DNA of 34,582 bases from Burkholderiales bacterium (GTDB lineage: Bacteria > Pseudomonadota > Gammaproteobacteria > Burkholderiales > UBA11063). Location: contig JAIEPY010000096.1 of the NCBI GenBank assembly GCA_019748155.1, positions 1-34,582 of the forward strand, given 5' to 3'. The notes beneath the pieces are model-generated. The model made no database searches, was not told the DNA's origin, and worked only from the letters and a program-made list of their open reading frames with translations. Below are positions 3,913 through 14,738 of this stretch, in pieces. Position numbers and translations under genes: made by a program. Position 1 is the first letter of the stretch; the number at the start of each line of letters is the position of its first letter.

Positions 3913-4869
3913 CTATGGAATAGGAACTACATTGAGAATTTTGTCAATGATTTGATCACTATTGATACCTTCAACCTCAGCTTCAAAGGTAAGTAAAATC
4001 CGATGGCGGAGCACTTCATGAATCATCACATGGATATCGTGCGGCGTAACATAATCACGACCTTCCAACCACGCATGAGCACGGGCTGTTCGCTCTAACG
4101 CAATCGTTCCGCGTGGACTAGCACCAAAACTGATCCATTTAGCTAGTTCTGCCTGGTATTTTTGTGGATAACGGGTTGCCATAATCAATTGAATAATGTA
4201 TTCTTCCAAAGCATGGCTTAAATGAATATTAGCTAATTGCTGCTGAGCCGCAAAAATTGCTTCTTGCGTAATGCGTGGACGATTAACATCTGCAACTTGA
4301 TTGTTTACACGATTAAGCGCCAAAATTTGTGCCTCTGCAGCTGCATCAGGATAAGCAATTTTAACATGCAGCATGAAACGATCTAGTTGCGCTTCAGGTA
4401 AGGGATAAGTACCCTCTTGCTCAATCGGATTTTGCGTTGCCATAACCAAAAATAACTGTGGCAATGGATAGGTTTGTTTACCCACTGTGATCTGTTTCTC
4501 ACCCATCGCTTCAAGTAGCGCTGACTGCACTTTAGCTGGTGCACGATTAATTTCATCGGCTAACAAAAAATTATGAAATAACGGACCAGATTGGAATTGG
4601 AAGGTATGTTGCTCAGGAATATAAACATCAGTACCAGTCAAATCTGCCGGCAACAAGTCAGGCGTAAATTGAACGCGGTGATAAGAGCAATCAATACAAG
4701 AAGATAAAGTTTTAATCGCGGTAGTTTTGGCAAGCCCCGGTGCACCCTCAACTAAGAGATGTCCCGATGATAATAATGCGATAAGTAGGCGCTTGGTTAG
4801 TTCGGATTGCCCAACCACCCGGCTATTTAGATAATTAAGTAATTGTTGAAACTGTTCGTGTTCGGTCAT
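3913..4869 (-). CDS. moxR: MoxR-family AAA+ ATPase
   Basis: A 318-residue AAA+ ATPase. Walker A is Gly-Ala-Pro-Gly-Leu-Ala-Lys-Thr at 42-49, Walker B is Leu-Leu-Ala-Asp-Glu at 102-106, the sensor-1 Thr-Gln-Asn is at 145-147, an Arg-finger region (Glu-Ala-Gln-Leu-Asp-Arg-Phe) is at 159-165, and a sensor-2 Ser-Pro-Arg-Gly-Thr lies near residue 250. These features and the length fit the MoxR/RavA group of ATP-driven chaperone-like proteins. It is the first gene of the Bat operon. GGAGGA lies three bases upstream of the ATG and a sigma-70-type promoter lies about 120 nt upstream. The likely substrates are the VWA proteins encoded downstream, inferred from gene linkage. Confidence 0.92.
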   Translation of the reverse strand: MTEHEQFQQLLNYLNSRVVGQSELTKRLLIALLSSGHLLVEGAPGLAKTTAIKTLSSCIDCSYHRVQFTPDLLPADLTGTDVYIPEQHTFQFQSGPLFHNFLLADEINRAPAKVQSALLEAMGEKQITVGKQTYPLPQLFLVMATQNPIEQEGTYPLPEAQLDRFMLHVKIAYPDAAAEAQILALNRVNNQVADVNRPRITQEAIFAAQQQLANIHLSHALEEYIIQLIMATRYPQKYQAELAKWISFGASPRGTIALERTARAHAWLEGRDYVTPHDIHVMIHEVLRHRILLTFEAEVEGINSDQIIDKILNVVPIP

Positions 4870-4985
4870 AAATCCTCCAGCATTTTAAAAAACCAGTAAA
4901 GGTTACTCCTTGTATTAAGCTAATTTTCGTCTGAAAGTCAAAATATATGCATCTCACCCAGACGCTCTTATCTTAAACGTTGGTT

Positions 4986-5014
4986 ATTGTAACATATCAT
5001 TTTTTAAAAATCAA
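4986..5014 (-). promoter_or_regulatory. sigma-70-type promoter of the moxR/bat operon
   Basis: Read on the minus strand: TTGATT (-35, 5014-5009), a 17-nt spacer, then TACAAT (-10, 4991-4986). The -10 is also preceded by TG plus one base, the extended -10 form. Transcription would begin about 110 nt upstream of the moxR ATG. Confidence 0.72.
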
Positions 5015-5361
5015 GGCTCTAATTTACACCGCAAGCGACATAAAAGATAATATACTGATATTAAACAATAAATAATATTATAAACTGTATAAATTAGCAT
5101 TTAATACAATTCAAATATCTTCAAAATGCTTAGCTTGCGTGCTCTAGCATTTAGCTTAAAGAACAAAAAAACATAACTAAAACTCTAAAATATTTGACTT
5201 TTTGCAAATTATTAACAATTAAAATATAAATTATCAGCTGAATAATTTTGCGTAAGTTGTGCGGAACTGCTTTCAAGACCTAATCCGCTAAAATCAATGG
5301 TTAAAATATATACAGGCATTTCCTTTTAATTAATTATGTCGTACTTTATTTATTCTCAAAT
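4992..5361. other. AT-rich intergenic region between moxR and the thioesterase gene
   Basis: Beyond the moxR promoter this stretch is very AT-rich with no convincing gene. It holds a 7-bp inverted repeat (AAATGCT at 5124-5130, AGCATTT at 5146-5152, 15-nt loop) without a T-tract. It also holds a 35-codon minus-strand ORF (5319-5212) preceded by an AAAGG too close to its ATG to be a good ribosome-binding site. It may carry the 3' end of the thioesterase transcript, but no clear terminator is seen. Confidence 0.6.
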
Positions 5362-5778
5362 TTAATCCGCAATGTTAGTCTTAAAGGCATCAATAACACC
5401 TTGGGGTATTTCTGTTGCCCTAGCTGTTTTAAGATCTACATATACCCATAGAGTCTCTGCTGTGACAACTATTGTATTATCATGCTCCCTAATTATTCGA
5501 TATGCTCTAGTTGATTTCTTAGCATGCATATTCTTTATCCATGTTTCTACAATTAACTTTTCACCAAGATATGCTGGTGCTAGGTAATCAACTTCATGTC
5601 TGCGCACCACAAAGCATGCTCCGCTAGCGAGATATTTTTCTAAAGTTAGCCCACATGCACTTGAATGTGCTCCTGCGGACTCCATTAGCCATCTGATGTA
5701 AATTTCATTATTAACGTGCTTTAATGCGTCAATATGGTCATTATTAACCGTAATAGAATAGTTGAATATATGTGTCAT
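5362..5778 (-). CDS. hot-dog fold acyl-CoA thioesterase (4HBT family)
   Basis: A 138-residue protein, the normal length for single-domain 4-hydroxybenzoyl-CoA thioesterase / YbgC-type enzymes. The N-terminal signature is present: an Asp at residue 17 in the catalytic position, followed four residues later by His-Val-Asn-Asn and then a Tyr (residues 21-27). The strand containing Ala-Pro-Ala-Tyr-Leu-Gly-Glu (about 67-73) also fits. It probably hydrolyses an acyl-CoA or aryl-CoA thioester in the cytoplasm; the substrate cannot be read from sequence. It is transcribed alone, divergently from the alpha/beta hydrolase, and the two may share regulatory DNA. Confidence 0.87.
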   Translation of the reverse strand: MTHIFNYSITVNNDHIDALKHVNNEIYIRWLMESAGAHSSACGLTLEKYLASGACFVVRRHEVDYLAPAYLGEKLIVETWIKNMHAKKSTRAYRIIREHDNTIVVTAETLWVYVDLKTARATEIPQGVIDAFKTNIAD

Positions 5779-5832
5779 GTATTAGTTCCAAAATTTTAAT
5801 AGCTGCAATCTGCAAAATGCGTTATATTGATA

Positions 5833-5957
5833 TAATACTAAAAGTATAAAAGATCAATTATATTATACTTCTAATTTTATTGCAGATGAATGAAAGTTTA
5901 AAGTTTAATAATTTATCGCTAATTTTATTTATGATATAATCTTTTAAATACTTTTAC
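5833..5957. promoter_or_regulatory. cluster of ATACT/AGTAT motifs between divergent genes
   Basis: The 194-bp divergent spacer carries ATACT-AAA-AGTAT (5835-5847). Overlapping it is a perfect 8-bp inverted repeat, AAGTATAA (5842-5849) and TTATACTT (5863-5870), with a 13-bp gap. A further half-site-like AATACTTTTAC lies at 5947-5957, just after the extended -10 of the hydrolase. Such repeated, symmetric motifs beside a promoter suggest an operator. The region is so AT-rich that chance palindromes are possible. Confidence 0.35.
5932..5940 (+). promoter_or_regulatory. extended -10 promoter of the alpha/beta hydrolase gene
   Basis: TGATATAAT (TG, one base, then perfect TATAAT) ends 32 nt before the ATG at 5973. 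The -35 position 17 bp upstream (TTTATC) is weak, which is common for extended -10 promoters. AAAGG lies about 6 nt before the start codon. Confidence 0.55.
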
Positions 5958-5972
5958 TCTCAAAAGGTACGG

Positions 5973-6806
5973 ATGACTATTCATAAAAATTATATATTTA
6001 CCACTCATGGAGCTAGATTACAAAAAATCTCTGGTCAAAATACGGCAGCAAGTTCAAATTACCTATTTATTCCCTGCCCCGGTCTTAGTTCAGAATCATT
6101 GATAGATTTAGTACTTATTTTGGATGGGAAAATAGATGCTTGCTTATGGCTAATGGATCATCCTAATGATGGGGATAATCTGAATCCCAATTATGATTTC
6201 GCCAACTGGAGTCAATCAATAATTGAAGCCATAACAATATTAGATAAACCTATTGTAGTTGCTCACTCTACATCAGGGATGATGCTACAAAGTATTCCAG
6301 AATTAGAGCATATTGCATCAGGAATGGTATTGATTGCCAGTGCACCAGACATGAGCTGGAAAGATACATTTATTAGCTATATGCAACAAAATTTAACCGC
6401 TGAATTAAAATTAGCCGCACAAGCACACTCAATACATCCCAAGAACGAGAGCTTACGTGAATTATTATTGGCGGCAATTCAATTTTCATTTGAACCTTCT
6501 AGCTTTAATGCGGCACGTAAAATGATTGGAAAATTACTCGTTAACCATAAAGTTGCTGAATACTCAGATCTAAACTTTGATCCGATATACAAAGCCAAAT
6601 TTGTTCCAAATTCTTTGGCAACATTAATTATTAATGGCGAACTGGACAAAATTATACCATCGCGGGTATATATAGATAAGCAGAAATACATCAGAGATAA
6701 TATATTGATTAAACAGATAAGTGGCGCTTCTCATTACCCATGGTTTGAGAAGCCCGATGCTGTTCTAAATGCTTTTATTGAATTCAAAAGCAAATTTTAC
6801 GCGTAA
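5973..6806 (+). CDS. alpha/beta hydrolase
   Basis: A 277-residue protein without signal peptide. The nucleophile elbow reads Ala-His-Ser-Thr-Ser-Gly at 97-102 (Ser99), replacing the common Gly-His-Ser-x-Gly-Gly. The acid is probably Asp225 within Asn-Gly-Glu-Leu-Asp, and the base His254 within Gly-Ala-Ser-His-Tyr-Pro-Trp. Strand-turn spacing and length match soluble esterases and hydrolases of this fold. The substrate is unknown. Divergence from an acyl thioesterase suggests, weakly, a role with acyl or ester compounds. An AAAGG ribosome-binding site supports the start. Confidence 0.82.
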   Translation: MTIHKNYIFTTHGARLQKISGQNTAASSNYLFIPCPGLSSESLIDLVLILDGKIDACLWLMDHPNDGDNLNPNYDFANWSQSIIEAITILDKPIVVAHSTSGMMLQSIPELEHIASGMVLIASAPDMSWKDTFISYMQQNLTAELKLAAQAHSIHPKNESLRELLLAAIQFSFEPSSFNAARKMIGKLLVNHKVAEYSDLNFDPIYKAKFVPNSLATLIINGELDKIIPSRVYIDKQKYIRDNILIKQISGASHYPWFEKPDAVLNAFIEFKSKFYA

Positions 6807-6937
6807 AATGTTATTTTACTCGGTCTCGCTATCTTTGAGCAGTTTATAATACCTTGCTTGCCAATTTCAGTGTTTCTCACCACTATTGAGCTATCCTTAA
6901 AACCCTTTATTCTGAGCTCATTAAGATGCGTTTATCA

Positions 6938-6946
6938 TGTTACAAT
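6938..6946 (+). promoter_or_regulatory. candidate extended -10 promoter of the gsp operon
   Basis: TGTTACAAT (TG-T-TACAAT) lies 95 nt upstream of the gspC ATG. No good -35 is seen at 17 bp. The motif is identical to the TGTTACAAT at the moxR promoter. Confidence 0.4.
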
Positions 6947-6987
6947 ACTAGAAACTAGCATCATTTGCATGCCATATGTGGTAGAAT

Positions 6988-7032
6988 TTGTGGTTTAGAC
7001 TATATTTAATTTACCGAAGCAAGAAACCACAA
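6988..7032 (+). promoter_or_regulatory. inverted repeat in the gspC leader
   Basis: A perfect 9-bp inverted repeat (TTGTGGTTT at 6988-6996, AAACCACAA at 7024-7032) encloses a 27-nt loop and ends 9 nt before the gspC start codon. No strong Shine-Dalgarno sequence is visible there, so the structure could influence translation initiation, or act as an operator. Role inferred only from position. Confidence 0.35.
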
Positions 7033-7041
7033 GTAAACAAA

Positions 7042-7725
7042 ATGAAAAATATCAATGTAAATCAAACAATTCGCGCACTAAGCATCACTCTTAGGTTCGC
7101 GACCATAGTTGCTACGGCATCACTACTGGCTAGAATTTGTTGGTGGGCCATGAATCCACTGGGGTATGACACTGTCGACTCAATTGCAAACTCCTATGTA
7201 AAACCAGATATAGTTGCTCAAGACATTACTAACCGGGCTCCATTTGGAGTTGTTACTGTAGAAAAAGCACCAGTACCAACTATTGCTGACAAGCTAAAGG
7301 TAGTTGGAGTTTATGCCGCAGGTCCCAAAAATAGTATTGCCTTTATACAAATTGACGGTAAAAACTCAATTGCCGCAATCGGAGAAAGTGTTATGGATGC
7401 AACTGTTAAGGCAATTAATTCAGACGGCATAGTGCTAGTCGAAAAAGGTCAGAGCGTAACGATTAACATATCTTCTGCCTCAGGAAATAATGCCAACACT
7501 CCAGGTACATCGACAAATGGAGGAGATCATTCAACCTCAACCGCTAATAGCTATATACCACAAACAAATAGTGCAAATAATAATCAATCCAGTCCTAGTG
7601 CTCAGAATACCAGCCCGAGTGCCTCTACCCCACCAGCAGCAGGACAAGATGATGACTCAATAGCCGATAAACGCCGAAAAATGATTGAAGCATTCCAAAA
7701 ACAAAACTCAACCAACGGTGACTAA
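7042..7725 (+). CDS. gspC: type II secretion system protein C (GspC-like)
   Basis: A protein of 227 residues from the ATG at 7042; an upstream TTG in frame (6988) lies in a leader inverted repeat and is less likely. It has a short cytoplasmic N-terminus, one membrane helix (about 16-36), and a periplasmic homology region (about 70-145) with the typical pattern Leu-Lys-Val-Val-Gly-Val-Tyr, Ala-Phe-Ile, and Ile-Gly-Glu. A long Ser/Asn/Thr-rich tail and a basic C-terminal helix follow. A C-terminal PDZ or coiled coil, found in many GspC proteins, is not evident. GspC links the inner-membrane platform to the GspD secretin. It is the first gene of gspC-D-E-F, 42 nt ahead of gspD. Confidence 0.82.
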   Translation: MKNINVNQTIRALSITLRFATIVATASLLARICWWAMNPLGYDTVDSIANSYVKPDIVAQDITNRAPFGVVTVEKAPVPTIADKLKVVGVYAAGPKNSIAFIQIDGKNSIAAIGESVMDATVKAINSDGIVLVEKGQSVTINISSASGNNANTPGTSTNGGDHSTSTANSYIPQTNSANNNQSSPSAQNTSPSASTPPAAGQDDDSIADKRRKMIEAFQKQNSTNGD

Positions 7726-7767
7726 ACAAAACGATAACTATATTTTAATGCTTATGCAAGGACTTTT

Positions 7768-10254
7768 ATGAACTTAAAGCTTAAACAACTATGTCTAACA
7801 CTTTGCGGATTATCTATGATTAATCTGAGTTTTGCTGTTAATACATCATTAGGACAATCATCAGGAACATCCTCTAGCACAAATACGATATCCAATAGCC
7901 AAACTGCGGATGACAAAGTAGTGCTAAATTTTGAAAATGCAGATATTCAGACGGTAATTAAAGCGATCAGTAAATTATCCGGGAAAAATTTTGTAGTTGA
8001 CCCACGAGTTAAGGGTACCGTAAATATAGTTTCAGAAAAGCCAGTAACTAAAGCAGAAAGCTATAAAGTACTGGAGTCAGCATTAAGAATGCAAGGATTT
8101 GCCACAGTTGAAGCAGACGGTGTAATTAAAGTATTACCAGAGACCGATGCCCGTACTTATGGGATGAAAACTGATAGTCAGGTTAGCAGTAATCATAGTC
8201 CTGGCGATCAATTGATTACCAAAATATTTACCATTGATAATGGATCAGCAACACAACTGGCTAACGCATTACGTCCAATGATTTCTCCTAATAATGCGAT
8301 TTCGGTATATCCCAATAGTAACTCACTTGTTGTAACAGATTATGCCTCGAACATGACGCGAATTACTAAGATTATTACTGACCTTAAAGTTACTCAAGCT
8401 ACCCGAGTTCAGCCAGCTACGGTTAAGTTAAAATATGCAACGGCGGCTGATGTGGCACAAACCCTGCAAAATTATCTTGGGGGCGGCAGCAGCTCAAGTG
8501 GCGGTGGCGCTTCTAGTGGTGGAGGTGGTAATAATGATAATGGAGCGGCTGCCACAATAACAATTGACCCTGGTTCAAACTCAATAATTATCACTTCAAC
8601 AGTCGCATCAAGAATTGAAGACTTGAAAAAGCTAGCAATCTCATTAGATAATCAGTCCGCTAATTCAAATAACAACCTACACGTTGTCTATCTTAAAAAT
8701 GCTGACGCAGCTCACGTAGCAGAAGTATTACGAATAATTGCCTCTGGGCAAGACAACCCTGACCTAACTGCTTCAGCCGCGAATCGGGCTCTATCGGATA
8801 CCAGCTCAGTTTTCCAAGGTAGCGGTGGTGGGGGAAGTGGTGGATCAACGCCTTTTGGTGGTGGTAGTGCCAATACAAGCAGTAAATCAAGTTCAAACAG
8901 AAGCGGCGGCGGTGGCGGTGGTTCTTCAACTAATAATGATAAAAATGCACCTAAAGTGCTAATCCAAGCGGAACCAACCACCAATTCCTTAATTATTCAA
9001 GCACCGGAGCAAGTTTATCGTAATTTGCGCATGGTTGTAACTTTACTTGACGTTCGCCGCGTTCAGATCATGATTGAAGCACTGGTGGCCTCTGTGAATA
9101 CTAGTGAACAAGGCACCTTTGGAATTCAGTGGATTGGTGGTGCGGGGAATAATAATCTAGGTGTCGGAGTCGTATCTAACTATGCCGGAAACGGCAGTAG
9201 CGCGAGTAGCTTGATCACCTCAGGGATGGCAATTGCGCAAGGGGCAAGTGGTAGTGGCGGCGGTGCAGGTGGTGTATCAATTCCAGGTGAGGTTTATGTA
9301 GGTCTGGTTACCGGAACCACCACGATTGGTGGGCAAACTGTACCCACTATTTCTACTCTTGCAGATATGTTGGCCTCCAATAGCGCGAACAATATCTTGG
9401 GACGTCCGACGTTACTTACTATGGATAATGAAGAAGCAGAAATTTTCGTTGGGCAAAACATTGGTATCCCAACTGGTTCATTCCAAAATAGCGCCGCTGC
9501 GCCAGGTAGTATCTCCAGTACAGTACAGCGTCAGGATGTCGGAACTATTTTAAGAATTAAGCCCCTAATTACACAAAATGGTACGATTCAACTAACAGTC
9601 TATGAAGAAGATTCCCAAACCGATACAACAGGAATGACCGCTGCTTTATTAACCACCAATGGACCAAATATTAATAAACGTAGTATAAAAACCCAAATTG
9701 TCGTCGATGACGGACAAATTATTGCGCTTGGTGGAATGACGCAAGATATAGTTCAACTACAAAACTCAGGTGTTCCGGTATTAAGCTCTATACCTTACTT
9801 AGGATGGCTATTTAGCTGGCAAAACCGGGTTCATAACAAGAATAACTTGGTGCTGTTTTTACGTCCGGTAGTGATTCGTAATCAAGAGGGTTACAAAGCA
9901 CTTACTAATCAACGCTATAGTTATATGATGGATCAACAAAATACGATTCAAGCCAAAGGAAATATCTTGTTCCCACAAATTGATGCCGTTAATTTGGAAA
10001 ATCAGGTTCCTTATGATAATCAGGTTCCAAGTCAAAATACTGCAACGCCGAGTGAACCAATTGTGGATTTAACCTCCACGGCAGTAAAATCAGGTAAAAC
10101 ACCACTAATAAGTAATGCACCTATTGGTAAAGTACTTAATCAGCCGAAAAATTCTGCTTCAGTAATTCAGCCCGCTAGTGGAAATAATGCTTCATCGAAT
10201 GCTCGAGTAATCCAAAACTCACCAAATAGCATCTCGATTTATAACAATAATTAG
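7768..10254 (+). CDS. gspD: type II secretion system secretin GspD
   Basis: An 828-residue outer-membrane secretin with a signal peptide (1 to about 23, ending Leu-Ser-Phe-Ala) and no lipobox. The N0 domain is at about 48-125 (Asp-Ile-Gln-Thr-Val-Ile). N1 to N3 follow at about 145-435, then the secretin domain at about 440-700 with the conserved Val-Pro-Val-Leu-Ser-Ser-Ile-Pro-Tyr-Leu-Gly block near its end. Two Gly/Ser-rich insertions interrupt N2 (about 236-256) and N3 (about 350-392). The C-terminal 120 residues are low-complexity and polar, the place where an S-domain would bind a pilotin, but no match can be claimed. AAGGAC precedes the start. It forms the outer-membrane channel of the T2SS. 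Confidence 0.95.
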   Translation: MNLKLKQLCLTLCGLSMINLSFAVNTSLGQSSGTSSSTNTISNSQTADDKVVLNFENADIQTVIKAISKLSGKNFVVDPRVKGTVNIVSEKPVTKAESYKVLESALRMQGFATVEADGVIKVLPETDARTYGMKTDSQVSSNHSPGDQLITKIFTIDNGSATQLANALRPMISPNNAISVYPNSNSLVVTDYASNMTRITKIITDLKVTQATRVQPATVKLKYATAADVAQTLQNYLGGGSSSSGGGASSGGGGNNDNGAAATITIDPGSNSIIITSTVASRIEDLKKLAISLDNQSANSNNNLHVVYLKNADAAHVAEVLRIIASGQDNPDLTASAANRALSDTSSVFQGSGGGGSGGSTPFGGGSANTSSKSSSNRSGGGGGGSSTNNDKNAPKVLIQAEPTTNSLIIQAPEQVYRNLRMVVTLLDVRRVQIMIEALVASVNTSEQGTFGIQWIGGAGNNNLGVGVVSNYAGNGSSASSLITSGMAIAQGASGSGGGAGGVSIPGEVYVGLVTGTTTIGGQTVPTISTLADMLASNSANNILGRPTLLTMDNEEAEIFVGQNIGIPTGSFQNSAAAPGSISSTVQRQDVGTILRIKPLITQNGTIQLTVYEEDSQTDTTGMTAALLTTNGPNINKRSIKTQIVVDDGQIIALGGMTQDIVQLQNSGVPVLSSIPYLGWLFSWQNRVHNKNNLVLFLRPVVIRNQEGYKALTNQRYSYMMDQQNTIQAKGNILFPQIDAVNLENQVPYDNQVPSQNTATPSEPIVDLTSTAVKSGKTPLISNAPIGKVLNQPKNSASVIQPASGNNASSNARVIQNSPNSISIYNNN

Positions 10255-10265
10255 TATAGAGTATC

Positions 10266-11759
10266 ATGGAACAACTAAAGTTTTCTCCCAATAAATATTC
10301 GCGTAGGATTCCCTATACCTACGCGCGAAGTAACAAAGTCTGTATTTATGCGGCAGATGCTGAATTTGTGCACATTGCAACTTCGGTTAACCTCAATCCA
10401 TTAGTAATTACTGAGATCAAACGCAAGGTAAATCAGCCGCTTAAGATCGAACGGATTGAGGAAAAACTCTTTGATGCGATTATTGCCGAAGCCTATTCGA
10501 GTGCAAATGCGGCGGCCGTAGTCGATGATATTCAGGATGATATTGATATTTCAGATTTGATGCAAAATCTGCAAAAAACTGAGGATTTATTGGAGTCAGA
10601 GAACGATGCACCAGTAATTAAAATTATCAATGCCTTTTTGACTCAAGCAGTAAAAGAGGATGCATCGGATGTCCATCTTGATGCTTATGAACATACTTCA
10701 TTAGTACGCTTTCGCCGTGATGGTGTACTACACAAGATTATTGATGTAAATCGTGGACTACATGCTGCATTAGTTTCGCGGATTAAAATTATGGCGCAAC
10801 TGGATATTGCTGAAAAACGTTTACCACAAGATGGACGGATTGCCCTGCGGCTTGCTGGTCGTGAGGTTGATTTACGGGTTTCAACCATTCCAACTGGTCA
10901 CGGTGAACGAATTGTAATGCGTTTACTGGATAAAAATAAAGAGCGTTTGCAACTTGAAACACTCGGTATGGCACCAGATACTTTAGCTAAAATTGATAAA
11001 CTAATTTCTCGTCCACATGGAATTTTTTTGGTTACAGGTCCAACAGGTTCTGGTAAATCAACAACCTTATACGCTGCGTTAGCTCGGATTGATTCCAATG
11101 CACTCAATATCATGACGGTAGAAGATCCGGTTGAGTATGATATTACCGGGATTAGTCAAACTCAGGTAAACGCTAAAATTGACATGACTTTTGCCCGAGC
11201 TCTTCGTTCAATCTTACGTCAGGATCCTGATGTAGTGATGATTGGGGAGATTCGTGATTTGGAAACCGCCGAAATCGCAGTTCAATCAAGTTTGACCGGG
11301 CATTTGGTATTAGCAACGCTCCATACCAATTCAGCATCATCGACTGTAACGCGAATGATAGACATGGGTGTTGAATCATTCCTGCTTTCTTCAACTCTGA
11401 TTGGAATTTTGGCGCAACGTTTGATTCGCCTATTATGCCCAAGATGTAAAGAAGAGAATACCTCAATGGATGCAGAAACTCGCGCCCAATATGAAATTCC
11501 TGATGATATAAAAATTTATAAAGCCGTTGGCTGTGATTATTGCAGCGGAACTGGTTATAAAGGGCGTACTGGTATCCATGAATTATTGGTGATTGATGAA
11601 GAAGTTCAACGCCTAATTCATACTAATGCATCTGAAACTGAAATTGAAAAGTATGCGATTAAAAAACTTGGTATGCGAACCTTACGCATGGACGGTTTAC
11701 GTTGGCTTCGAGATGGTAAAACAACAATTGAAGAGATTATCTCAATTACTAAAGAATAA
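10266..11759 (+). CDS. gspE: type II secretion system ATPase GspE
   Basis: A 497-residue secretion ATPase. Walker A is Gly-Pro-Thr-Gly-Ser-Gly-Lys-Ser-Thr at 258-266, the Asp box Val-Glu-Asp-Pro-Val-Glu is at 285-290, Walker B is Met-Ile-Gly-Glu-Ile-Arg-Asp at 325-331, and the His box Leu-His-Thr is at 352-354. A GspE-type zinc site has Cys391, Cys394, Cys423 and Cys426. The N-terminal domain (1-110) should bind the GspL platform protein. It hydrolyses ATP in the cytoplasm to drive pseudopilus assembly. It starts 11 nt after gspD and is followed 5 nt later by gspF. The tetracysteine motif favours GspE or PilB over a PilT-type motor, and the neighbouring gspC and gspD settle it as T2SS. Confidence 0.94.
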   Translation: MEQLKFSPNKYSRRIPYTYARSNKVCIYAADAEFVHIATSVNLNPLVITEIKRKVNQPLKIERIEEKLFDAIIAEAYSSANAAAVVDDIQDDIDISDLMQNLQKTEDLLESENDAPVIKIINAFLTQAVKEDASDVHLDAYEHTSLVRFRRDGVLHKIIDVNRGLHAALVSRIKIMAQLDIAEKRLPQDGRIALRLAGREVDLRVSTIPTGHGERIVMRLLDKNKERLQLETLGMAPDTLAKIDKLISRPHGIFLVTGPTGSGKSTTLYAALARIDSNALNIMTVEDPVEYDITGISQTQVNAKIDMTFARALRSILRQDPDVVMIGEIRDLETAEIAVQSSLTGHLVLATLHTNSASSTVTRMIDMGVESFLLSSTLIGILAQRLIRLLCPRCKEENTSMDAETRAQYEIPDDIKIYKAVGCDYCSGTGYKGRTGIHELLVIDEEVQRLIHTNASETEIEKYAIKKLGMRTLRMDGLRWLRDGKTTIEEIISITKE

Positions 11760-11764
11760 TATAT

Positions 11765-12982
11765 ATGCAAACATTTAACTATAAGGCACTGACTAAAGCA
11801 GGTAAAGATAAAATTGGCGTGATTCAAGCAGAGACCGCTAAACAAGCTCGGCAATTATTACGTGCTCAGGGTTTAATGGTCACCAATATTGAATCAGAAA
11901 AAGATCGTAAAGCCAAAACTTCAAAAGATGTAACCTTTAAGAAAAAAGCAATCTCATCACTTGAGCTATCACTAATTACACGTCAGTTTGCGATTTTACT
12001 TAATTCCGGGATGTCGGTAGAACAAACACTATCCGCACTTTCGGATCAATTAGAAAGCCATGAACAAAAAGCAATTATGAGTGGCGTACGTAGTGAAGTC
12101 CTTGGTGGGCGTTCATTAGCTGCCTCACTCAGAATGTACCCTAAAGTATTCCCGCCAGTTTATTGTAGCTTAATCAACGCTGGTGAACAATCGGGTAGCT
12201 TGGGTAACGTAATGACTAAACTAGCTGATTATAGCGATAAAACGCGCGAGTTAACCAGTAAAATCATGATGGCACTACTCTACCCGATTATTGTCTGTAT
12301 CGTTGCAACTTTGGTAATTGTTGCATTATTGGTCTTCGTCGTTCCGCAGGTGGTAAAAGTATTTGAAGCATCGAAACAAACCCTGCCGCTCATTACGCGA
12401 GGAATGATCGCGAGTAGTAATGGTTTGCGCCATTATGGTATCTATATGTTGATTGTAATCGTATTGATGGTCGTCGGATTTACCAGGTCGCTAAAAAAGC
12501 CTGAAAATAGGATTAAATTTCACCGTAAGTTATTAAATCTACCCATAGCCGGTAAACTTTTAGTTAATATTGATATCGCGCGCTTTACTAATACTCTATC
12601 CATGCTCTTAGCCAGTGGTGTGCCGATGCTCAACGCATTGGAAGCAAGTCGGGATACGCTGAGTAACTTCATGCTTAAAAACGCCGTGGATCGTGCGGTA
12701 ATAATGGTTCGTGAAGGGGTTGGCTTAGCCGTGGCGCTCAATGCCCAGAGTGCCTTTCCTCCTGTGGTAATTCATCTGATCGCCAGTGGCGAAAAATCAG
12801 GTAATCTTGATCACTTGCTAGAACAAGCTGGTAGCCATCAAGAACTAGAATTAACCCATCGTAGCCAACTCTTAACCGGGATACTTGAACCAGCTTTGAT
12901 TGTATTCATGGGTGCAGTGGTAATGCTGATTGTAATTGGTATTATGTTACCGATCCTGAATATGAATAAAATGGTTAATTAA
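11765..12982 (+). CDS. gspF: type II secretion system inner-membrane protein GspF
   Basis: A 405-residue protein with the usual GspF length and layout: a small N-terminal domain (Phe-Asn-Tyr-Lys-Ala-Leu-Thr), two homologous cytoplasmic helical domains, and three membrane segments (about 165-195, 218-238 and 372-398). The paired motifs Phe-Pro-Pro-Val-Tyr-Cys-Ser-Leu-Ile and Phe-Pro-Pro-Val-Val-Ile-His-Leu-Ile, each followed by Gly-Glu and Ser-Gly, mark the internal duplication. It is the platform protein coupling GspE to the pseudopilus. It is the last gene of the cluster; a strong terminator follows within 30 nt. Confidence 0.94.
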   Translation: MQTFNYKALTKAGKDKIGVIQAETAKQARQLLRAQGLMVTNIESEKDRKAKTSKDVTFKKKAISSLELSLITRQFAILLNSGMSVEQTLSALSDQLESHEQKAIMSGVRSEVLGGRSLAASLRMYPKVFPPVYCSLINAGEQSGSLGNVMTKLADYSDKTRELTSKIMMALLYPIIVCIVATLVIVALLVFVVPQVVKVFEASKQTLPLITRGMIASSNGLRHYGIYMLIVIVLMVVGFTRSLKKPENRIKFHRKLLNLPIAGKLLVNIDIARFTNTLSMLLASGVPMLNALEASRDTLSNFMLKNAVDRAVIMVREGVGLAVALNAQSAFPPVVIHLIASGEKSGNLDHLLEQAGSHQELELTHRSQLLTGILEPALIVFMGAVVMLIVIGIMLPILNMNKMVN

Positions 12983-13010
12983 TTTTAACTCGGTCATCAA
13001 CAAATTAAAT

Positions 13011-13041
13011 TGCCACACAAATTATGTGTGGCATTGTTTTA
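13011..13041 (+). terminator. Rho-independent terminator after gspF
   Basis: A perfect 9-bp stem (TGCCACACA at 13011-13019, TGTGTGGCA at 13025-13033) with a 5-nt AATTA loop, then TTGTTTT. It closes the gspCDEF operon. Confidence 0.88.
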
Positions 13042-13107
13042 AGTTTTGAAATTAAAGCCCTTAGAAATAACCATATTTATAATGTAGTTAAACAAAGGAA
13101 GTCGATC

Positions 13108-14022
13108 ATGATTGATAATTTTTTAAATAAGCAGCTGATTTGCCTTGATTTAAAGTCAAGCAACAAAGCAGAGGTTTTTGCAGAATTAGTTGACTTGTTA
13201 GTCAAAAATGGTAACGTTAGCAATAAAGAGCAATTTCTCGCTGATGTTAATGCACGCGAAGCAGTTAGTAATACTGGCTTTGAAGAAGGCGTTGCTTTTC
13301 CTCATGCCAAAAGTACTGCGGTAGCCACACCTGGCGTAGCTGTTGGAATTAGCCGAAGCGGAATTGATTATGGCGCTGATGATGGCGAATACTCTAAGCT
13401 CTTTTTTATGATTGCCTCACCGGAAGGTAGTACTAATTTGCATGTAGAGTTGCTGGCGAAAATTTCAAATAAACTAATTGAGCATGGTTTTATCAATAAA
13501 ATTATGGCGGCGACAACAACAGATGAGGCGCTCGAGCTCCTTATGGAGCAAAAAAAAGCTAAAGAAGTCCAAACCAGTACGAGTAAAGGTTTTATTATTG
13601 GTGTCACGGGTTGCCCAACTGGAGTAGCGCATACCTATTTAGCGGCTGAAGCTCTGGAAATCGGCGCGGCTAATTTGGGTTACACCATCAAAGTTGAAAC
13701 CAATGGCTCTGTTGGAGTGAAAAACTCCCCCAGCCAAGAGGAAATAGCTAAAGCAGATGCAATTATCGTCAGCTGTGATACTCAAGTTGATATGACGCGC
13801 TTTGCAGGTAAAAGACTAATTAAAACTGGCGTAAAAGCTCCAATCAAAAATGCAGAAAAATTAATTCAGGAAGCATTAGAAGCACCATTGTTTCAAGCGC
13901 AAGCTTCAGCAAAATCACAAAAACAAGATAAGAAAAACACGGAAAATGGTAGTCTTTATACCTACCTGATGAATGGTGTATCTTATATGATTCCATTTGA
14001 GGTTATTTTGTCCGTTGGATAG
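13108..14022 (+). CDS. PTS fructose-type EIIA-EIIB, 5' part of a disrupted EIIABC gene
   Basis: Begins at the ATG at 13108, preceded by AAGGA at 8-nt spacing; an earlier in-frame ATG at 13024 lies inside the gspF terminator. Residues 1-150 are a complete EIIA(Fru) domain with the phosphorylatable His66 in Phe-Pro-His-Ala-Lys. Residues 160-260 are an EIIB(Fru) domain with Cys169 in Gly-Val-Thr-Gly-Cys-Pro-Thr-Gly-Val-Ala-His-Thr. The reading frame enters EIIC (Gly-Val-Ser-Tyr-Met-Ile-Pro-Phe) and then meets TAG after 305 residues. EIIA and EIIB could still fold and accept phosphate, but there is no membrane transporter. No fruK, ptsH or ptsI is nearby. The gene is best viewed as a decayed fructose-type permease. 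Confidence 0.85.
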   Translation: MIDNFLNKQLICLDLKSSNKAEVFAELVDLLVKNGNVSNKEQFLADVNAREAVSNTGFEEGVAFPHAKSTAVATPGVAVGISRSGIDYGADDGEYSKLFFMIASPEGSTNLHVELLAKISNKLIEHGFINKIMAATTTDEALELLMEQKKAKEVQTSTSKGFIIGVTGCPTGVAHTYLAAEALEIGAANLGYTIKVETNGSVGVKNSPSQEEIAKADAIIVSCDTQVDMTRFAGKRLIKTGVKAPIKNAEKLIQEALEAPLFQAQASAKSQKQDKKNTENGSLYTYLMNGVSYMIPFEVILSVG

Positions 14023-14738
14023 CTAATCTCAAATATCACAAAATGTTACGTCCATTAGTACCAATCTTGATTGCGCCAATTAGTGGCACATTATTTATTG
14101 CTGCAGTGTTTATCTTTGTAATCGGCGCACCAATTGCCAGTTTAATGGTATTTTTAAATCATACCCTACAGGAAATGAGTACCGGTAATGCGATATTATT
14201 GGGTATCGTACTGGGTGGTATGACCGGTTTTGATATGGGCGGACCATTCAATAAAGTCGCATTCCTCTTCTCAATTGGTATGATTGCCAATGGTCAAACT
14301 CAGTTCATGGGTGCAATGGCATGTGCGATTCCGGTTGCGCCATTAGGCATGGCATTATCAACCCTAATCGGTAGAAAAATGAATCTCTTTAGCGAAGCTG
14401 AGCTTGAAGCAGGTAAGGCTGCCGGAGCCATGGGTCTAGTGGGTATTTCTGAGGGCGCGATTCCTTTTGCGGCACAAGACCCATTTTCGGTAATTCCGGC
14501 AAATATCATCGGCAGTATGCTTGCATCAGTAATGGCATTTAGTTTTGGTGTAACTGACAGCGTAGCGCATGGCGGACCAATCGTTGCCCTGCTTGGTGCA
14601 ATGAATAAACCATTGATCGCGATTATTTGTATGCTTTGTGGAGCTGTTACAACTGCGTTAATTGCGATAATTTTGAAAAAATTCTTTACCAAAAAAGCAC
14701 AAGCTAACAAAGCTTCTCATGCTTTGAATAATGCTTAA
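14001..14738 (+). pseudogene. PTS fructose EIIC remnant, out of frame with EIIAB
   Basis: In the frame used by an ATG at 14043, residues homologous to EIIC can be read back from that ATG to about 14001 (Gly-Tyr-Phe-Val-Arg-Trp), just past a TGA in that frame at 13998. Downstream is the C-terminal half of EIIC, including Phe-Asp-Met-Gly-Gly-Pro and Glu-Gly-Ala-Ile-Pro-Phe-Ala-Ala. The EIIAB frame ends 4 residues past Met-Ile-Pro-Phe-Glu. Roughly the first 80-100 residues of a normal EIIC, with its first membrane helices, are therefore absent at the junction near 13996-14003, and the frames do not match. Deletion plus frameshift makes transport activity very unlikely. The intact 231-codon stretch suggests recent decay. 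Confidence 0.85.

Follow-up and report, generated by a model that had tools for sequence, protein, structure and literature searches.

The closest described system is ManP (VC1826) of Vibrio cholerae, a mannose/fructose EIIABC permease with fructose-family EIIA, EIIB and EIIC in one chain, as in the gene considered here (PMC9392796). According to the available part of that source, VC1826 carries both mannose and fructose and shares an operon with an isomerase gene (VC1827), with VC1825 as activator. A homologue at the Vibrio locus L034 lies between an AraC-type and a ManA-like gene (named by eye), just as VC1826 lies between VC1825 and VC1827 in that description (PMC9392796). VC1826 was grouped with the L034 gene because of this shared arrangement, and the grouping thus rests on gene order, not on sequence. 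Broken genes of this kind have been described in Streptococcus thermophilus LMD-9, in which PTS genes including a fructose EIIA and two EIIABC are truncated pseudogenes; the available text reports a nearly identical pseudogene set in three strains and wide gene decay (PMC3231929), whereas the present case concerns one gene in one genome. Among the titles listed by literature searches on Aquella oligotrophica, on VC1826 and mannose, and on broken or split EIIAB or ManP genes, none refers to a broken PTS gene of Aquella, and the words phosphotransferase, fructose and pseudogene are absent from the available text of PMC6612550.

The window (the whole stretch of DNA analysed, 34,582 nucleotides from a Burkholderiales bacterium) contains a ManP-like EIIA-EIIB-EIIC permease gene that, as assembled, has lost an internal segment of EIIC together with its reading frame. 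Unlike ManP, this copy lacks residues 298–394, is split, and has no ManA-like gene beside it by eye. The EIIA-EIIB part (13108–14022, forward strand) is 304 residues long: it runs through Met-Ile-Pro-Phe (residues 294–297), continues for seven out-of-frame residues that form a post-deletion tail, and stops at 14020–14022. The ATG at 13108 was taken as the start because the protein of the congener G022 (see below) begins there; the longest open frame would begin at the ATG at 13024. As the initial annotation had stated, both domains are complete. PF00359 (E = 2.8e-35) and PF02302 (E = 3e-18) match, TIGR00848 scores 125.7 bits against a cut-off of 103.5 and TIGR00829 scores 102.1 bits against 76.85, and alignment with homologues shows that the active residues His66 of EIIA and Cys169 of EIIB are both retained. 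There is no complete EIIC in frame with EIIB: only positions 138–345 of the 346 in TIGR01427 are left, in a different frame, although the remnant, at 166.3 bits, still exceeds the cut-off of 157.55. The EIIC remainder (14001–14738, forward strand) resumes at the equivalent of residue 395, bearing out the jump to another frame after Met-Ile-Pro-Phe that had been noticed initially, and extends to residue 639 of the intact protein, uninterrupted until the stop at 14736–14738. A TGA in the remnant's frame lies directly 5' of it (13998–14000). The first ATG of this frame is at 14043, and no Shine-Dalgarno-like sequence was seen ahead of it by eye.

Upstream of the EIIAB start, a TATAAT (13078–13083) followed by AAAGGAAG (13094–13101) was picked out by eye on the forward strand, while a promoter scan returned no site at 13078–13101. 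A terminator-like hairpin (13011–13033, forward strand) was found by scanning between gspF and the EIIAB gene; six such hairpins were observed in the scanned stretch, compared with 1.5 expected. The genes directly upstream (7768–12982) belong to a type II secretion system (Pfam: secretin, T2SSE, T2SSF), and the region downstream of gspF looks different, by eye, in G022 and G016.

The EIIC remnant was used to search 41 genomes, comprising that of the organism itself (G000), 22 from the same genus and 18 from other families of the order. Matches were found in five, G000 included. The best non-self match, in G022, belongs to a permease of 639 residues in a single frame, so that an intact allele does exist in a relative. 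Compared with this gene, the window copy is shorter by a net 289 bp (1 modulo 3), or about 97 residues (298–394), within the 80–100 residues estimated in the initial annotation, and the alignment maps the junction to 14000–14008, anywhere within which the join can be placed at no more than one mismatch from the best. Both flanks are 87% identical to the G022 gene in DNA alignments of 927 and 827 columns, and chance resemblance was dismissed for this reason. At the protein level, the EIIC remnant is identical to G022 residues 395–639 in 231 of 246 columns, counting the stop. In a further congener, G013, a contig ends inside the gene, and the sequence from residue 376 onward is unbroken, so the distal part of the missing segment is present. 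The distant matches, in G003 and G031, have 47% and 38% identity, respectively; in G003, EIIC and EIIB are in separate frames. None of the other examined genomes with a close homologue showed the split arrangement; conservation of this arrangement in relatives is what the initial annotation had named as evidence against its own reading. When the whole intact protein was used as a query in G000, only residues 1–300 and 390–639 were matched, both at the window locus, and the rest of the assembly yielded no match to the missing segment. As assembled, the gene thus fits a pseudogene formed by internal deletion, with a disabling change relative to the intact G022 orthologue and intact copies in the examined relatives.

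The missing segment was also followed in a wider set of homologues, made up of the 80 best among 158 relatives; with G022 itself set apart, 79 remain. These homologues, from Vibrio, Photobacterium, Enterovibrio, Aeromonas and others, are 68–72% identical to the G022 permease. All 79 have the segment, with residues at no fewer than 80 of the 94 aligned positions (301–394). Identity across this set reaches 95% or more at 66 of the 94, which indicates that these positions matter for function. The intact protein has eight hydrophobic 19-residue stretches (hydropathy of at least 1.5), three of which, beginning at 294, 336 and 384, are missing or truncated in the window copy.

We consider it most probable (about 83%) that a single internal 289 bp deletion inactivated a ManP-like EIIABC gene, an ordinary case of pseudogenization. 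The event would have occurred in the lineage of this species, which is represented by one genome and probably belongs to Aquella. Since the deletion would remove or cut three of the eight predicted hydrophobic stretches and shift the frame, transport of the sugar by this route was probably lost, in agreement with the initial annotation. The sugar would be mannose and/or fructose. The EIIAB half would remain translatable into a protein ending in a short hydrophobic tail, which, if expressed, might in principle accept phosphate from HPr; its own channel would be broken, and the EIIC remnant is probably either not made or not working. If the deletion is real, one sugar-uptake route has been lost in one Aquella species, with EI, HPr and other permeases remaining, a result of local use for growth-substrate prediction and of no wider surprise.

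The initial annotation described the loss as recent. Neither the EIIAB nor the EIIC fragment contains an internal stop. Where the window and G022 differ, at 34 residues, the homologues more often side with G022 in 15 cases and with the window in 15, the remaining four being ties. Relative to G022, EIIAB has a dN/dS of 0.042 and the EIIC part one of 0.075, compared with 0.010 for gspF and 0.055 and 0.035 for two neighbouring HAD-type genes. Among these five values, that of the EIIC part is the highest, in part because its dS is the lowest (0.46, against 0.73–0.85 for the others). Neither the residue differences nor dN/dS to G022 thus gave a clear sign of relaxed selection in either fragment. 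This pattern would be expected of a young break. With no visible decay, the deletion would be either young relative to the split from G022 or an artefact of assembly, and the undecayed fragments fit both equally.

We therefore considered the possibility that the organism itself carries an intact gene and that the gap reflects an assembly, chimera or consensus error. Besides the undecayed fragments, the draft state of the genome (136 contigs) and the lack of collinearity with G022 to the left of about 13078 are compatible with such an error. Collinearity breaks within 13035–13078: window 11558–13035 (gspF) and 1–1175 match G022 contig C49, in an order differing from that of the window, and the window from 13078 on (the permease gene and what follows) matches G022 contig C1. 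About 5 kb that separate the permease gene from the HAD gene in G022 are absent from the window at that place. However, the three neighbouring genes show 86–88% identity to G022 over their length, and the larger reading frames of the window look whole by eye. Assemblers merge repeats at word lengths far above a few bases, and the ends of the deletion, read in G022, share only few consecutive bases, far below such lengths. An error of this kind is thus unlikely, and we infer that the deletion is a biological event.

A different explanation is that the split gene is functional, with EIIAB deliberately retained, either as a free phosphoryl acceptor or to pair with another EIIC. His66 and Cys169 are retained, dN/dS is low, and the genome encodes both EI and HPr, with three matches to PF00381 (HPr) and two to PF05524 (EI), so a lone EIIAB could be phosphorylated. 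A free, phosphorylatable EIIAB is therefore possible in this genome. There are also four other EIIC genes matched by PF02378, the window remnant not among them (G022 has six, its intact orthologue included). These four score 122 to 284 bits, against 60 bits for the intact ManP-like EIIC of G022, and thus look like a separate permease branch, which counts against this explanation. A young pseudogene would show the same signs of retention, and the split arrangement is confined to this genome among those examined that have a close homologue. Purposeful retention thus appears very improbable, and we give equally little credence to the more specific proposal that the deletion produced a stand-alone EIIAB phosphocarrier, retained as a phosphate sink or as a regulator tied to the general PTS. 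The two frames overlap over 14001–14022, where a ribosomal frameshift could fuse them into a shortened permease, but the product would still be short of about 97 residues, of which many are strongly conserved, and no aligned homologue is so shortened; we regard this as scarcely credible. Pseudogenization by one internal deletion accordingly remains the preferred reading.

The name fructose permease, used in the initial annotation, holds at the level of the family but not for the specific sugar. For the intact G022 protein, the NCBIfam fructose domain models exceed their cut-offs, and no equivalog model does; the best of the latter, for a 2-O-mannosyl-D-glycerate permease, scores 403 bits, below its cut-off of 763. 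The label is best read as a family-level one, since the arrangement of the Vibrio homologue is that of a mannose transporter that accepts fructose too. A genome search that had been proposed for ptsH, ptsI and fruK succeeded for the first two, EI and HPr being present as described above, while the 1-phosphofructokinase model had nothing over its cut-off in 12 genomes (G000 and 11 congeners), with weaker matches in all 12. Fructose as a certain substrate was set aside on this ground. Mannose as a certain substrate was set aside as well, type I ManA not having been found in G000 or G022. A Vibrio ManA-like protein used as a query had no match in either of these two genomes, and weak partial matches in three of the 12. 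PF01238, representing type I ManA, matched none of four genomes, though this model matched only two of 14 genomes used as controls. A match to PF01050 occurs in all four genomes, including G000, where it lies in a 483-residue frame, and G022. No mannose-6-phosphate isomerase gene in the Vibrio arrangement was seen by eye alongside either the window or the G022 copy. The sugar stays uncertain because neither a 1-phosphofructokinase above the cut-off nor a type I mannose-6-phosphate isomerase was found in G000 or G022. For the type strain, the available text of PMC6612550 records a negative result for D-mannose in one test and its utilization in another.

The general PTS genes of G000 lie on two contigs. 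On C135, an 838-residue protein with HPr and EI domains, an EIIC gene, HPr (89 residues) and EI (581 residues) follow each other in a row, in a compact cluster (4187–10900) that also includes, by eye, a small EIIA-like protein of 130 residues between the EIIC gene and HPr. The third HPr is on C136, behind an EIIA_2 match and EIIB-like and EIIC-like frames, the latter two recognized by eye. In the same region (C136, 3875–8439), the HPr gene is followed by aquaporin-like and then glycerol-kinase-like genes, both named by eye.
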